From Lysobacter sp. (GTDB lineage: Bacteria; Pseudomonadota; Gammaproteobacteria; Xanthomonadales; Xanthomonadaceae), in assembly GCA_027306995.1 (NCBI GenBank), contig DAHUXS010000019.1:1-64000 (forward strand): DNA of 64,000 nt. The letters run 5' to 3'. Position numbers and translations under genes: made by a program. The notes under the pieces were generated by a model. That model saw nothing but the letters and a program-made list of their open reading frames with translations. It ran no database searches and was not told the origin of the DNA. Below are positions 59,418 to 64,000 of the stretch, in pieces. How positions within the stretch are numbered: position 1 is the stretch's first letter; each line of letters starts with the position of its first letter.

Positions 59418-60152
59418 ATGACGAGCGCTGCCGAACATCGACCGATCCGCCTGCTGATCCACGGAGCCAACGGCCGCATGGGCCGGGCGGTGCGGCGCAT
59501 CGCCGCGACCGACGCGCGTTTCGAGATCGTCGGCATCGTGTCGCGGGCGACGCCCGAAATGCGCGTGGTCGATGGAATTCCGTTCTTCGCGGCCAGCGAA
59601 CTTCCCGCAGTTCCCGAATTCGACGTCGCGATCGATTTCAGTCTTCCGGAAGCCTTCGACGGCATCCTCGGCGAATGCGTGAAGCGCGCCGCTGCGCTGG
59701 TGTCGGGCACGACCGGCATCGATGATGCGCAGCGTGCGGCGCTGGAATCGGCATCAAGCAAAATCCCGCTGGTGTGGGCGTCGAACTTCAGCCTCGGCGT
59801 GGCTTTGTTGCATCAATTGGTGGAAACCGCCGCGGCACGCCTGCCGGGCTGGGACTGCGACATCGTCGAATCGCACCACGTCCACAAGAAGGACGCACCC
59901 TCGGGCACGGCGCTCACGCTGGGCGCGGCAGCGGAAGCCTCGGGCGCCAAGCCGCATTACGCCAGCCTGCGTGCAGGCGACATCGTCGGCGAGCATCTGG
60001 TGCAGTTCACCGGGCAGGGCGAGCGCATCGAACTGATCCATCGCGCCACGGACCGCGACATCTTCGCGCGCGGAGCCGTGCACGCCGCGGCATGGCTGCA
60101 GGGTAGACCGGCAGGACGCTACAAAATGGCTGATACTTTAAGCGATTTGTGA
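59418..60152 (+). CDS. dapB: 4-hydroxy-tetrahydrodipicolinate reductase
   Basis: DapB is the NAD(P)H-dependent second step of the lysine/diaminopimelate branch. The 244-residue protein has the Rossmann motif IHGANGRMGRAV and SGTTGID, and the active-site SHHVHKKDAPSGTALTLG with the catalytic His-His and Lys. TAGCCT ends 6 bases before ATG 59418. In related genomes dapB is followed directly by carA; here a 3-kb opposite-strand cassette lies between them. Confidence 0.97.
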   Translation: MTSAAEHRPIRLLIHGANGRMGRAVRRIAATDARFEIVGIVSRATPEMRVVDGIPFFAASELPAVPEFDVAIDFSLPEAFDGILGECVKRAAALVSGTTGIDDAQRAALESASSKIPLVWASNFSLGVALLHQLVETAAARLPGWDCDIVESHHVHKKDAPSGTALTLGAAAEASGAKPHYASLRAGDIVGEHLVQFTGQGERIELIHRATDRDIFARGAVHAAAWLQGRPAGRYKMADTLSDL

Positions 60153-60163
60153 GTCCTCGTTGT

Positions 60164-60538
60164 TCAGTGAAACCCGTTTGGCGCCATGATTCCGAAGCAG
60201 GCGGCAACTAGTAATAGGGCCAATCCGGAAAAGATGGCAAAGCCCAACCAAATGCCTTTGGCAGTCTCGGTGTTCCCTTTGATGCGGAACCAAATGCCGA
60301 ATAGCAGTGGCAGAAAAAGCGCCAGCAATTTCATTGGCAGGATCAGTAGGCCCGCCACAATCACTGCAAAATAAATGCCGATGCCACGTCCGATCGATCC
60401 TTCGTCGGGATCATTTGGCGTCTTTATGCGTGTCGGCAGAGAAAACTGAGGCGAGCCGTTCGGCAGTTGTGGCGGTTGGGGACTGCGATCTGTGTCTTTA
60501 GGCAAAGGCGGTGGTCGCGCCGGTTCCTGATCATTCAT
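60164..60538 (-). CDS. Small membrane protein, paralogue of 60565-60966
   Basis: This 124-residue protein has a Pro-rich cytoplasmic N-terminus (EPARPPPLPKDTD) and GSIGRGIGIYFAVIVAGLL. Two to three transmembrane helices end in GLALLLVAACFGIMAPNGFH. It shares with its neighbour the pattern TAKGxWLGFAI, LLLVAACFGI and a terminal FH, so the two are tandem duplicates. It is less GC-rich than its paralogue. It is the last gene of the Lgt-like/radical SAM cassette, 26 bases after the previous gene. No function is known. Confidence 0.75.
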   Translation of the reverse strand: MNDQEPARPPPLPKDTDRSPQPPQLPNGSPQFSLPTRIKTPNDPDEGSIGRGIGIYFAVIVAGLLILPMKLLALFLPLLFGIWFRIKGNTETAKGIWLGFAIFSGLALLLVAACFGIMAPNGFH

Positions 60539-60564
60539 GGCTAACCCCTTCGAACATGCAGTAC

Positions 60565-60966
60565 TCAGTGGAAATTGCTGCCCGCGAGGATTCCGAAGCA
60601 GGCCGCGACCAGCAGCAACACCAGGCCGATTGCGATCGCGAAGCCGAGCCACACGCCCTTGGCGGTCTTGCGCAGCCCCTTGCGCGTGAACCAGATGCCG
60701 GCGACCACCGGCAGCAGGATCGGGCCCAGTCCGATCGGCAGCCACATCAGCGAGTAGAGGTTGATTCCTGCGGTGGAGAGCAGGGACATCAGCAGCCGCA
60801 GGATGACGCCGAGCGCAGGGCCGCCGAGCAGCATCAGCGCCAGGCAGATCGCGATGCCGGCGCCGACTGAACCTTCATTGCCGTCATCGACGGGTGGCGG
60901 CGCGTTCCCGGCGGGCGGCTGGTAGGGGTCGCCCGGCGGCAACGGCGGCGGAGTGTGTTCGCTCAT
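60565..60966 (-). CDS. Small membrane protein coupled to the radical SAM gene
   Basis: This 133-residue protein has a Pro-rich N-terminus (MSEHTPPPLPPGDPYQPPAG), an acidic stretch and three or four hydrophobic segments (AGIAICLALMLLGGPALGV, MWLPIGLGPILLPVVAGIWF, IGLVLLLVAACFGILAGSNF). Its ATG overlaps the radical SAM stop (ATGA at 60963-60966), which ties it to that enzyme. It might be a membrane anchor or chaperone for it. No family is recognised. Confidence 0.8.
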   Translation of the reverse strand: MSEHTPPPLPPGDPYQPPAGNAPPPVDDGNEGSVGAGIAICLALMLLGGPALGVILRLLMSLLSTAGINLYSLMWLPIGLGPILLPVVAGIWFTRKGLRKTAKGVWLGFAIAIGLVLLLVAACFGILAGSNFH

Positions 60967-62381
60967 TCTGCATTCCCCCGGTCGACCATCGCCCGCAAGG
61001 CTTCGAGGCGTTCACGGTGACCATCGCGATAGAACAGGTTGTAGGTGTCGAACGGAACGATGGTGCCATCCGGCTGGGCGATGTGCACGCAGCTCTTCTT
61101 CACGCTGCGCAGGTCGAAGCTCTCGGCATCGATGAAGTCCATGATCAGCACGCGGAACACGTTGCGGTAATCCAGCCCTTCCGGCGCCATCACTTGCGGC
61201 AGGCAGCACAGCAGGTCGGACAGCGAACAGGCCTGCGATTCCGGCGAGTGGTTGGTCGCGAACAGCTTGAAGATGGCTTCGTGCAGGCCGCTGTCCTTCT
61301 CCAGCACGATGCTGTTGCGGCCGCCTTCGATCAGCACCTGCGGCGGCACCATGCCGGTCAGCGGCATCAGTCGCCCATCCACTTTCAAGGCGTAGGCCAT
61401 CGCCAGGCTATCGGGATGGCAGGGCACCGGGATCAGGTCTTCCGGCTTGAACAACGGGCATTGGTCGAGGATGCGCCGGCGCACTTCGCTCAGGGTCAGG
61501 CGGTCGCGCGCGGGATCGTAGTTTTCGGTGCGGCCGGCGTTCTGGATCGGCTGGAAGGTCACGCCGCGCACGCAGGGTTGGGTTAGCGCGAAATCGATGA
61601 TCTCGCCAAGCTCGTGGTCGTTCAGCCCCTTCTTGACCGTCACTACCAGCGTGGTCGAGATGCCGTGGCGATTCAGTGCGTCCAGCGCCTGCAGGCGGAT
61701 GTCGCGCAGTCGCGCACCGCGCAACACCTGGTGCACTTCGTCGCGCAGCGAATCGAATTGCAGGTAGAGCTCGAAGCCGGGCATGTAAGCGGCCAGCCGT
61801 TCCACGAACGCCGGTTCCTTGGCGATGCGCAGGCCATTGGTGTTGACCATCAGGTGCTTGATCGGTCGCGCCTTGGCGGCATCGAGGATGTCGAAGAACT
61901 GCGGGTGCAGGGTCGGCTCGCCGCCGGAAATCTGCACGACGTCCGGCTCGCCTTCGTTGGCGACGATGGCATCGAGCATCGTCTCGATCGTCGCCATGTC
62001 GCGATAGCCGGGACGGTGCGGCCCCGAATCGGCGTAGCAGATCGGGCAACGCAGGTTGCAGTGGTCGGTGACTTCCACCAGCGTCAGGCAACTGTGCTGC
62101 ATGTGTTCCGGGCACAGGCCGCAATCGTAGGGGCAACCCCAGTGGCGCAGCGTGTTGAAGCGGCGCGGCAACTCCGGCGCCTTGATGAAGACTTCGCGAC
62201 ACAGGCGGTAATAGTCGGCGTCGTCGGCGATCAGCACGCGCTGTTCGCCGTGCTGCGGACACCATTTGTCCATGTAGACGCGACCTTCCTTGATCAGGAT
62301 GGTTGCTTCGACGCGACGTAGGCAGGTGCCGCAGACCGAGATGGCGCTGTCGTAGAACAGATAGGGTCGAACCTTTGCCAT
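60963..62381 (-). CDS. Radical SAM enzyme of the tetraether lipid synthase-like (Tes/MJ0619) group
   Basis: This 472-residue protein is probably an Fe-S enzyme acting on lipid chains. The radical SAM cluster motif is C108-x3-C112-x2-C115 (DHCNLRCPICYADSG), with QISGGEPTLHP downstream. The N-terminus has a rubredoxin-like set C17, C20, C41 and CPQHG. A further array C83, C87, C90, C98 lies in WGCPYDCGLCPEHMQHSC. The C-terminal part has PVPCHPD, SLSDLLCCLPQ and KKSCVHIAQPDGTIVPFDTY. This layout is what I know of MJ0619-type proteins; Tes joins lipid tails by C-C bonds in archaea. The product here is unknown. Its ATG overlaps the Lgt-like TGA by one base. Confidence 0.85.
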   Translation of the reverse strand: MAKVRPYLFYDSAISVCGTCLRRVEATILIKEGRVYMDKWCPQHGEQRVLIADDADYYRLCREVFIKAPELPRRFNTLRHWGCPYDCGLCPEHMQHSCLTLVEVTDHCNLRCPICYADSGPHRPGYRDMATIETMLDAIVANEGEPDVVQISGGEPTLHPQFFDILDAAKARPIKHLMVNTNGLRIAKEPAFVERLAAYMPGFELYLQFDSLRDEVHQVLRGARLRDIRLQALDALNRHGISTTLVVTVKKGLNDHELGEIIDFALTQPCVRGVTFQPIQNAGRTENYDPARDRLTLSEVRRRILDQCPLFKPEDLIPVPCHPDSLAMAYALKVDGRLMPLTGMVPPQVLIEGGRNSIVLEKDSGLHEAIFKLFATNHSPESQACSLSDLLCCLPQVMAPEGLDYRNVFRVLIMDFIDAESFDLRSVKKSCVHIAQPDGTIVPFDTYNLFYRDGHRERLEALRAMVDRGNAE

Positions 62382-63121
62382 CAACGTTTTCCAGGAATCG
62401 AGTGCGATATGCGGATCATGTCGCGAGCATAGTAGGCGAGGCCGAACACGCACCACCATTGCAGGCCGCTCAATCCAAGCAGGTGGAAGGGCGCGGGACG
62501 GATGAATTCGATCAGCAATCGGTACATGAGATAGCCGGCGAGGAAGACGCGGAAGCGATCGCCTGGTTGTTGCAACCGCGATGGCAGCAGGCGATCGATC
62601 ACCACGAACACCCAGACCAGCAGGAAGGCGGCCTCATAAAGCTGGGTGGGATGACGCGGAATCCCGTCGCCGAAATCGACCCCCCAGGGCAGGGACGTCG
62701 GATCGCCGTAGGTGTGGTCATTCAGGCCGGACAGGAAGCAGCCGGCGCGGCCGATGATCATGCCGATCGCCAAGGGGTGGACGAAGGCATCGCCGGTCGA
62801 TGTGCGGATGCCGGCCATGCGCTTGGCGGTCTCGACGCCGATCAATCCGCCGAGCAGGGCGCCGATGATCGATTTGCCTTCCAGCAGATGGCGCCAGTCC
62901 GGGAAATCCGCGAAAGCGTAGGCCGGGTCGTAGCTCCAGTAGGCCAGCTTGGCGCCGATCGCCGCGCCGAGCACCGCGCCGGCGATCACGGTGTAGCGGG
63001 CCTCGCCATCGGCCAATGAATCGACGTTCAGGCGTCGGCGTTCGCGCAGGAACCAGCGAAATCCGACGAAATAGGCAGCCGCCTCGAAAATGGTGTGGAT
63101 CTGGACCGGGCTGAGCGACAT
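62381..63121 (-). CDS. Divergent Lgt-like (prolipoprotein diacylglyceryl transferase family) membrane protein
   Basis: This 246-residue protein with about seven hydrophobic segments starts at ATG 63121 (MSLSPVQIHTIFEAAAYF). Lgt family marks are GMIIGRAGCFLSGLNDHTYG (equivalent to the Lgt GRIGNFINGE block, with the Arg kept but Asn and Glu changed) and GIPRHPTQLYEAAFLL. It is shorter than E. coli Lgt (291 residues) and is probably not the housekeeping enzyme. It heads the coupled cassette with the radical SAM gene, suggesting a shared lipid substrate such as phosphatidylglycerol; that is inference. Confidence 0.8.
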   Translation of the reverse strand: MSLSPVQIHTIFEAAAYFVGFRWFLRERRRLNVDSLADGEARYTVIAGAVLGAAIGAKLAYWSYDPAYAFADFPDWRHLLEGKSIIGALLGGLIGVETAKRMAGIRTSTGDAFVHPLAIGMIIGRAGCFLSGLNDHTYGDPTSLPWGVDFGDGIPRHPTQLYEAAFLLVWVFVVIDRLLPSRLQQPGDRFRVFLAGYLMYRLLIEFIRPAPFHLLGLSGLQWWCVFGLAYYARDMIRISHSIPGKR

Positions 63122-63149
63122 CCACGGAGTGTAAATGGGCGCCCGAACA

Positions 63150-63178
63150 TGGACAGCCGGGCCCTGTTCACCTATCAT
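63150..63178 (+). promoter_or_regulatory. Sigma-70 promoter of carA
   Basis: TGGACA (63150-63155) and TATCAT (63173-63178) have a 17-base spacer; each differs from consensus at one position. It lies 82 bases before the carA GTG and 30 bases from the divergent Lgt-like start. Its presence shows that carA does not depend on dapB transcription. Confidence 0.7.
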
Positions 63179-63260
63179 TTCCACTCGCCCGACCCACCAG
63201 CCTCCGAACCGGATTTCCGCGCTTCGGCGGCTTTCTGCAACCCGAAACAAGGCGAAGCTC

Positions 63261-64000
63261 GTGACCGAACCTGCAATCCTGGCCCTAGAAGACGGCAGCG
63301 TCTTCCACGGGGTTTCCGTTGGCGCGCCCGGCATTTCCGTCGGCGAAGTGGTGTTCAACACCGCGATGACCGGATACCAGGAGGTGCTGACGGATCCGTC
63401 CTACGCACGCCAGCTGGTCACGCTGACCTATCCGCACATCGGCAATACCGGCATGACCGCGGACGACGACGAGTCCGCCAAGGTCTGGGCGTCCGGCCTG
63501 ATCGTGCGCGACGTGCCGCGCCGTCCCAGCAACTGGCGCAGCCAGGTCTCGCTGCCGGAATGGCTGCAGGCGCGCGGAATCGTCGCGATCAGCGATATCG
63601 ATACCCGTCGTCTCACGCGCCTCCTGCGCGACAAGGGCGCGCAGAACGGCGCACTGATGGCCGGTCGCATCGATGAAGCCGAAGCAATCGAAGCCGCGCG
63701 CAAGTTCCCAGGTCTCAAGGGCATGGATCTGGCCAAGGTCGTCACCACCGACAAGGCGCATGCCTGGACCGAAGGCAGCCTCGATCTCGATACCGGCAAG
63801 TTCGTGCAGCCGGCGAAGCGCTTCAAGGTGGTGGCCTACGATTTCGGCGCCAAGCTCAACATCCTGCGCATGCTCGCCGATCGCGGCTGCGACATCACCG
63901 TGGTGCCGGCACAGACGCCCGCCGCCGAGGTGTTGGCAATGAAGCCGGACGGCGTGTTCCTGTCCAACGGCCCTGGCGATCCCGAGCCTTGCGATTACGC
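63261..64000 (+). CDS. carA: Carbamoyl-phosphate synthase small subunit, 5' part
   Basis: CarA supplies ammonia from glutamine to CarB for arginine and pyrimidine synthesis. GTG 63261 begins [20 protein letters not shown]. The N-terminal domain ([40 protein letters not shown]) is complete, and the amidotransferase domain begins ([33 protein letters not shown]). The frame is open to the window end, so about 246 codons are visible of roughly 375-380; the catalytic Cys lies beyond. Confidence 0.95.

Follow-up and report, generated by a model that had tools for sequence, protein, structure and literature searches.

A 64,000-nucleotide stretch of a Lysobacter sp. genome (GenBank assembly GCA_027306995.1, contig DAHUXS010000019.1, positions 1 to 64,000), referred to here as the window, carries at positions 60164 to 63121 of the minus strand a cassette in which a gene for an Lgt-like protein is coupled to a gene for a radical SAM protein (rSAM) of the tetraether synthase (Tes)/TrsS superfamily. 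Joint inheritance of these two genes is well supported, and small Cys-bearing membrane proteins recur as a third component, a feature overlooked in the first-pass annotation. The reading preferred here, with a probability of roughly 0.4, is that the cassette is a horizontally spread three-part module combining diacylglyceryl transfer with radical chemistry on lipid tails, both acting on or anchored by the small Cys proteins. The features of the window concerned are as follows.

62381..63121, minus strand: Lgt-like gene, 246 amino acids, a noncanonical second Lgt paralogue
60963..62381, minus strand: rSAM gene, 472 amino acids, radical SAM of the Tes/TrsS superfamily
60565..60966, minus strand: SM1, small membrane protein of the "AACFG" family, 133 amino acids, directly 3' of the rSAM gene
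60598..60600, minus strand: codon for Cys123 of SM1, in the motif LLLVAACFG
60164..60538, minus strand: SM2, paralogue of SM1, 124 amino acids
60197..60199, minus strand: codon for Cys114 of SM2, in the motif LLLVAACFG
59418..60152, plus strand: dapB (by Pfam), a flank of the insertion, outside the cassette
63135..63998, plus strand: carA, the other flank, outside the cassette; the open reading frame (ORF) leaves the window, and its true start possibly lies further in

Read directly from the ORFs, the Lgt-like and rSAM genes have one base in common (TGATG), the rSAM gene and SM1 overlap at ATGA, and SM1 and SM2 are separated by 26 bp. The minus-strand order from carA to dapB is Lgt-like, rSAM, SM1, SM2, and the first-pass description of four coupled genes at this location was confirmed. 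The Lgt-like protein matched Pfam LGT with 98.4 bits (gathering score, 24.9), and rSAM matched Pfam Radical_SAM with 95.4 bits and an N-terminal zinc ribbon (PF23545) with 60 bits; the flank proteins matched DapB and the CPSase small chain. SM1 and SM2, which are 42 to 44% identical across their aligned part, had no Pfam or NCBIfam match at an E value of 0.1. The G+C content of SM2 (0.536; third position, 0.568) is below that of the other cassette genes (0.631 to 0.682; third position, 0.806 to 0.881), and SM2 may therefore have been added later or have arrived separately.

A scan of a genome collection with the rSAM protein produced 408 confirmed relatives, of which the best 80 were taken as loci for neighborhood analysis. 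By record title, the 80 loci belong to Pseudomonadota, Acidobacteriota, Bacillota, Verrucomicrobiota, Planctomycetota, Omnitrophota, Elusimicrobiota, and Myxococcota, with single assemblies labeled Cyanobacteria and Actinomycetota, for about ten phyla by label; many of the loci are from metagenome bins, in which the taxon labels are possibly wrong. Cultured carriers of the cassette include Paenibacillus, Neobacillus, Roseateles, Terriglobus, and Dokdonella. In 77 of the 80 loci, rSAM was preceded on its own strand by an Lgt-like homologue, at a distance of ≤60 bp in 63, 61 to 1,300 bp in 11, and further in 3, bearing out the earlier proposal of a conserved gene unit. The exceptions were a locus without an Lgt-like gene (L045), one with the Lgt-like gene downstream on the opposite strand (L069), and one with rSAM at a contig end (L070).

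Genomes not picked by neighborhood were covered in three surveys, of 369 Gammaproteobacteria (the class of the window), 119 Acidobacteriota, and 249 Bacillota (737 genomes in all), with bit thresholds chosen by eye where the scores showed a gap. Weaker matches to the Lgt profile, most likely canonical Lgt, were discarded before counting; with the strong ones included, Lgt-profile matches were present in 329 of 369 Gammaproteobacteria at an E value of 0.001 and in 44 of 249 Bacillota at 1e-28. Among the Gammaproteobacteria, for which at most four first-look rSAM candidates were scored per genome, strong rSAM matches were found in 10 genomes (≥639 bits; next, 301) and strong Lgt-like matches in 8 (≥149 bits; next, 121), all 8 of which were rSAM positive with the two genes adjacent. 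Among the Acidobacteriota, rSAM was found in 8 genomes (≥567 bits, best piece) and the Lgt-like protein in 9 (≥271 bits; next, 102). All 8 rSAM-positive genomes contained both, within 2.6 kb in 7 and split over contigs in G466, and the unpaired Lgt-like match (G397) stops 13 bp short of a contig end. Three Bacillota had rSAM (≥448 bits; E limit, 1e-100), and the same three had strong Lgt-like matches (≥182 bits; next, 134), one of them in reversed order. When the surveys were pooled, rSAM was present in 21 genomes, the Lgt-like protein in 20, both in 19, rSAM alone in 2, and the Lgt-like protein alone in 1 (Fisher test, P of approximately 2e-34, uncorrected for kinship). When the three genomes chosen as centers (G000, G001, and G005) were omitted, the counts were 18, 17, and 16 (both) of 734.

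The genes dapB and carA adjoin in the same orientation, without the cassette, in all three same-family genomes examined (G288, G179, and G026; spacing between aligned parts of about 304, 259, and 201 bp, respectively), in agreement with the first-pass statement that they are normally adjacent in this group; the distance in a genome of the same order (G381) is about 780 bp. Because rSAM was not found in any of these three other same-family genomes searched, the direct dapB-carA junction is taken as the empty site and the cassette as patchy within the family. The implied restriction to Lysobacteraceae did not hold, with 0 of 3 other same-family genomes containing rSAM and yet many phyla carrying the cassette. 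The three closest relatives (L005 to L007) have the cassette at the dapB/carA site with a single small gene each, and the twin small proteins are therefore not a general feature. In Dokdonella fugitiva, the cassette adjoins carA, and no dapB match was found within the 13-kb locus.

The Lgt-like gene is a second, noncanonical copy, as previously suspected: a canonical lgt is present on another contig of the same genome, and at least one further LGT match was found in each of 14 relatives' genomes searched. The predicted model of the protein (pLDDT, 92.4) has the Lgt fold, and the sole Foldseek match at an E value of ≤0.001 was E. coli Lgt, while the NCBIfam Lgt equivalogs were not reached (best, 51.7 versus 118.9 bits). 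The window protein was aligned with 77 homologues and the genome's own canonical Lgt (E. coli numbering). The equivalents of R143, G154, and R239 were kept in all 78 Lgt-like proteins (R125, G139, and R201 in the window). The H103 equivalent was V, I, or L in all 76 proteins with a residue there (I86 in the window), the N146 equivalent was Cys in 78 of 78 (C128), and the Y26 equivalent, present as a residue in 72 proteins, was Glu in 64 (E13). Further invariant residues in an alignment of 55 rows (A1) include E97, K100, G110, D111, and Q221.

In the accessible portion of one study, Y26, H103, R143, N146, G154, and R239 are listed as required in Lgt (PMC13251419), a set from which the Lgt-like family departs. 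H103 and R143 mutants of E. coli Lgt fail and R239 is intolerant to mutation, according to the sections available of another (PMC4728403), in which R143 and R239 are located at the pocket that takes up the diacylglycerol moiety of phosphatidylglycerol and the active site faces the periplasm. Since the excerpted account in PMC13251419 notes that other Lgt proteins can have Cys at N146, as well as Y, W, or F at H103, the N146C change is not by itself new. The alignment thus shows a donor side that is kept in the Lgt-like protein, with other essential positions rebuilt.

The closest solved structure to rSAM by sequence is the Methanocaldococcus jannaschii tetraether synthase 7TOL (E value, 7.6e-61), in accord with the first-pass placement of the protein within the tetraether synthase superfamily. 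The best NCBIfam match was TrsS (NF045646; 326.6 bits over nearly the full length), below the cutoff of 490, and the Tes model gave 261.4 bits (cutoff, 450); no match above the Tes cutoff was found in the genomes of 14 relatives. The window protein contains a rubredoxin-like site (C17/C20/C41/H44), an N-terminal cluster site (C83/C87/C90/H93), and a radical SAM cluster site (C108/C112/C115), and the corresponding Tes features (the rubredoxin site C-x2-C-x20-C-x2-H, the C/C/C/H N-terminal cluster, and CX3CX2C) were kept in 57 of 57 aligned rSAM proteins. In the same 57 proteins, the position of Tes C470 is occupied by D or E and that of Y459 by I, M, or L in every case, and the position of M439 is M in 38. 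Tyr459 and Met439 are fully conserved in archaeal Tes and both dispensable in vitro, and Tes works on saturated lipid tails, as stated in the part of PMC9433317 that was available. Because C470 is replaced by D/E while C321, C392, C393, and C431 are invariant in 81 rSAM sequences, the C-terminal cluster may be retained with ligands other than those in Tes; part of this region is unreliable in the predicted model.

In a tree computed with a quick method and with long branches flagged, the Lgt-linked rSAM proteins formed a clade (74 rows; SH-aLRT, 100) separate from Tes and the long Acidobacterial proteins, and Tes 7TOL (entered as two joined fragments) clustered with these long Tes-like proteins. 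Terriglobus roseus, Bryocella elongata, and Paracidobacterium acidisoli each have a separate Tes-like gene that scores 312 to 328 bits, against 236 to 244 bits for the cassette rSAM. The first-pass label "membrane-spanning-lipid type" thus amounts to no more than superfamily resemblance, given the separate clade, the 261.4 versus 450 bits, and the separate, better-scoring Tes-like gene in all three Acidobacteria examined by name. Members of the clade without an Lgt-like gene were seen beside genes for a DUF547 protein and a methyltransferase (L125, 4269 to 7419; L126, 6018 to 9174). A tandem pair of Tes/TrsS-like radical SAM genes outside the Lgt-linked clade was also observed in a gammaproteobacterium (G253; L134, 5892 to 9317).

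Small Cys-bearing membrane proteins recur beside the two enzymes. Proteins of the SM1 kind were found downstream of rSAM in 44 of the 80 loci (E < 1e-5; hand count), using a search model seeded with 26 of the 44 matching loci plus SM1 and SM2. The aligned Cys was present in 42 of the 44; L034 lacks it, and for L008 the aligned part ends before reaching it. In an alignment of 23 chosen members (A3; 25 to 69% identity to the first row), from which L034 and L008 were omitted, the Cys was invariant. In several Acidobacteria, the small proteins (one, two, or three in tandem) are instead encoded between the Lgt-like and rSAM genes, and in Roseateles/Pelomonas relatives a small protein gene precedes the Lgt-like gene. 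Tandem small Cys genes were also observed in L056 (7398 to 8314), L082 (7463 to 8194), L017 (5109 to 5883), L019 (5487 to 5994), and L020 (5546 to 5998), and the SM1/SM2 twin thus fits a habit of repeated duplication that has given pairs or triplets in other lineages too. In L167 (2448 to 2744) and L034 (6736 to 7119), an N-terminal Cys-rich part (zinc ribbon-like by eye) is followed by a hydrophobic part.

Adjacent ORFs were compared with control ORFs in 87 loci (the 80 loci plus 7 from the Gammaproteobacterial survey), with helices predicted by a simple hydropathy window. An adjacent small transmembrane (TM) ORF was found in 78 of 87 loci. Adjacent ORFs with two to three helices had a Cys within or close to a helix in 87 of 89 cases (controls, 32 of 49), and the form C-G or C-x-G occurred in 69 of 89, compared to 11 of 64 elsewhere in the loci under a slightly different control rule. 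Two sequence clusters supply 74 of these 89 ORFs (motif in 43 of 51 and 23 of 23), and the 89 are therefore not independent points. Counted by locus, 69 of 80 had an adjacent small TM ORF with a Cys, and 62 of 80 had one with the C-G or C-x-G form. By eye, Cys-bearing small or fused TM proteins overlooked by the script were seen in L022, L030, L074, and L076, an SM1-type gene lies further downstream in L039 and L058, and lipoprotein-like N termini occupy the place of the small protein in L015, L033, and L130. The flank preceding the Cys helix was more positive in 59 of 69 cases, equal in 6, and reversed in 4, and the Cys lay at a median of 0.74 of helix length (69 cases). By the positive-inside rule, this arrangement places the Cys towards the outer side, which is the side that the Lgt active site faces.

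In the proposed mechanism, the Lgt-like protein would bind phosphatidylglycerol and move its diacylglyceryl group by means of the two kept arginines. The acceptor would be new, most likely the conserved Cys towards the outer end of a helix in the small protein, in a lipobox-like Cys-Gly context. rSAM would abstract hydrogen from an unactivated lipid tail in the manner of Tes, coupling or otherwise altering the lipid before or after transfer, and the product would be either a small protein with a special lipid (coupled or modified) or a special lipid for which that protein serves as the anchor. We infer this chemistry (phosphatidylglycerol donor, small-protein Cys acceptor, radical acyl-tail step); the joint inheritance, the kept donor residues, the changes at other essential residues, the kept Tes metal sites, and the recurring Cys protein are observed. 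In a more far-reaching version, which is doubtful, the cassette would constitute a second bacterial lipidation pathway of Gram-positive and Gram-negative bacteria, with a His-less Lgt placing diacylglycerol on an intramembrane Cys of very small TM proteins and a Tes-type radical enzyme joining or remodeling the tails to give protein-anchored cross-linked or membrane-spanning lipids.

Several observations weigh against the three-part module. The histidine essential in E. coli Lgt is missing, which makes transfer to a thiol by the Lgt-like protein questionable; the protein may not carry out such transfer or may only bind lipid. The Cys contexts of the small proteins (AACFG and GLCG) differ from the standard lipobox, and rSAM would be expected in the cytoplasm, away from the predicted outer-side location of the Cys. 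Adjacent ORFs with one helix showed no Cys excess (7 of 12, versus 109 of 208 controls), and those with four helices showed the opposite trend (0 of 3, versus 3 of 4 controls). Of the 16 sequence clusters into which the adjacent two- to three-helix ORFs fall, only 5 contained the motif, and by script 11 of 80 loci were without a Cys-bearing small ORF and 18 of 80 without C-G/C-x-G. Locus and motif counts were not corrected for relatedness. Furthermore, rSAM occurs without an Lgt-like gene in G299, G192, and L045; in the two Gammaproteobacteria G299 and G192, its place is taken by a methyltransferase together with a DUF547 protein (the latter tested against Pfam in G299), although their nesting inside the Lgt-linked clade makes them look like losses of the Lgt-like gene.

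The retention of the Tes metal sites by an rSAM of the Tes superfamily is also compatible with a synthase of membrane-spanning lipids, in which rSAM would couple two acyl tails as in Mss/Tes, the Lgt-like protein would present or trim phosphatidylglycerol, and the small proteins would only anchor rSAM. Membrane-spanning lipid analogues with a phosphatidylglycerol head group are reported for two Bacillota strains in the portion of PMC13274423 that was accessible, which fits such a role. This explanation is possible but not probable: the rSAM clade stands apart from Tes and the long Acidobacterial proteins, the three cassette-bearing Acidobacteria examined by name have their own Tes-like gene too, C470 and Y459 are replaced (the latter being dispensable in vitro in the excerpt cited above), and the conservation of the Cys in the small proteins would be left unexplained. 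In a second alternative, rSAM would form a carbon-sulfur link at the small-protein Cys, in the manner of sactipeptides, with the Lgt-like protein lipidating or merely binding the product. Small Cys proteins, sometimes two or three in tandem, adjoin the radical SAM gene, and the rSAM core weakly matches peptide maturases, yet the nearest solved structure is that of a lipid synthase, the maturase matches are far weaker, and the Cys lies within a hydrophobic helix or at its end, making peptide modification improbable.

A third alternative, that the unit does what TrsS does with the Lgt-like protein as a lineage-specific partner, is similarly improbable, if marginally less so. No function for TrsS was found in the literature searched; the family is presumably part of the DVU_1551-1557 cluster. 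The TrsS model outscores the Tes model (326.6 versus 261.4 bits), and the G299 and G192 members lie beside a methyltransferase gene, the one in G299 (L125) scoring 152.8 bits for DVU_1556 (cutoff, 155). On the other hand, the 490-bit TrsS cutoff was reached neither in the window nor in any of five TrsS-matching proteins checked, and the members lacking the Lgt-like gene are nested inside the Lgt-linked clade, so that the methyltransferase context looks derived. Chance proximity of genes without a joint function, spread on mobile DNA, would account for the patchy distribution and for the insertion between dapB and carA but is highly improbable given the co-occurrence counts, with the Lgt-like/rSAM pair present in 19 genomes of the surveys and kept over some ten phyla (by label). 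The three-part module is preferred over these alternatives.

No paper joining the Lgt and Tes-type radical SAM families was found in the literature searched, and within that scope the first-pass statement that the genes match no described system stands. The enzyme folds are known; no description of the two together with a small Cys membrane protein emerged from the same searches. If the three-part module is correct, it would represent a lipid or lipoprotein modification pathway in cultured bacteria based on a new use of two well-studied enzyme folds, and it would broaden the range of activity of Lgt-fold and Tes-type enzymes. The third component provides a concrete, testable substrate candidate. 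Because cassette-bearing Acidobacteria can carry separate Tes-like genes too, counts of "Tes homologues" as predictors of bacterial membrane-spanning lipids may mix at least two clades.

Compared to E. coli Lgt (5AZB/5AZC), the Lgt-like protein has V/I/L in place of H103, Cys in place of N146, and mostly E in place of Y26, and it differs further in a new conserved TGD, K100, and E97 and in its linkage to an rSAM gene. The second Lgt of mycobacteria, MSMEG_5408, has N146C like the Lgt-like protein, a change of Y26 (to His), and presumed low Lgt activity, according to the sections of PMC13251419 that were available; radical SAM genes are not mentioned in the main text of that source. rSAM and the M. 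jannaschii Tes/GDGT-MAS (7TOL) have in common the radical SAM core, the rubredoxin site, and the N-terminal cluster, but rSAM, unlike Tes, forms its own clade, has a changed C-terminal cluster region, and is closely linked to the Lgt-like gene. TrsS is the best-scoring named relative of rSAM, from which the cassette is set apart by the Lgt-like protein and the small Cys proteins.

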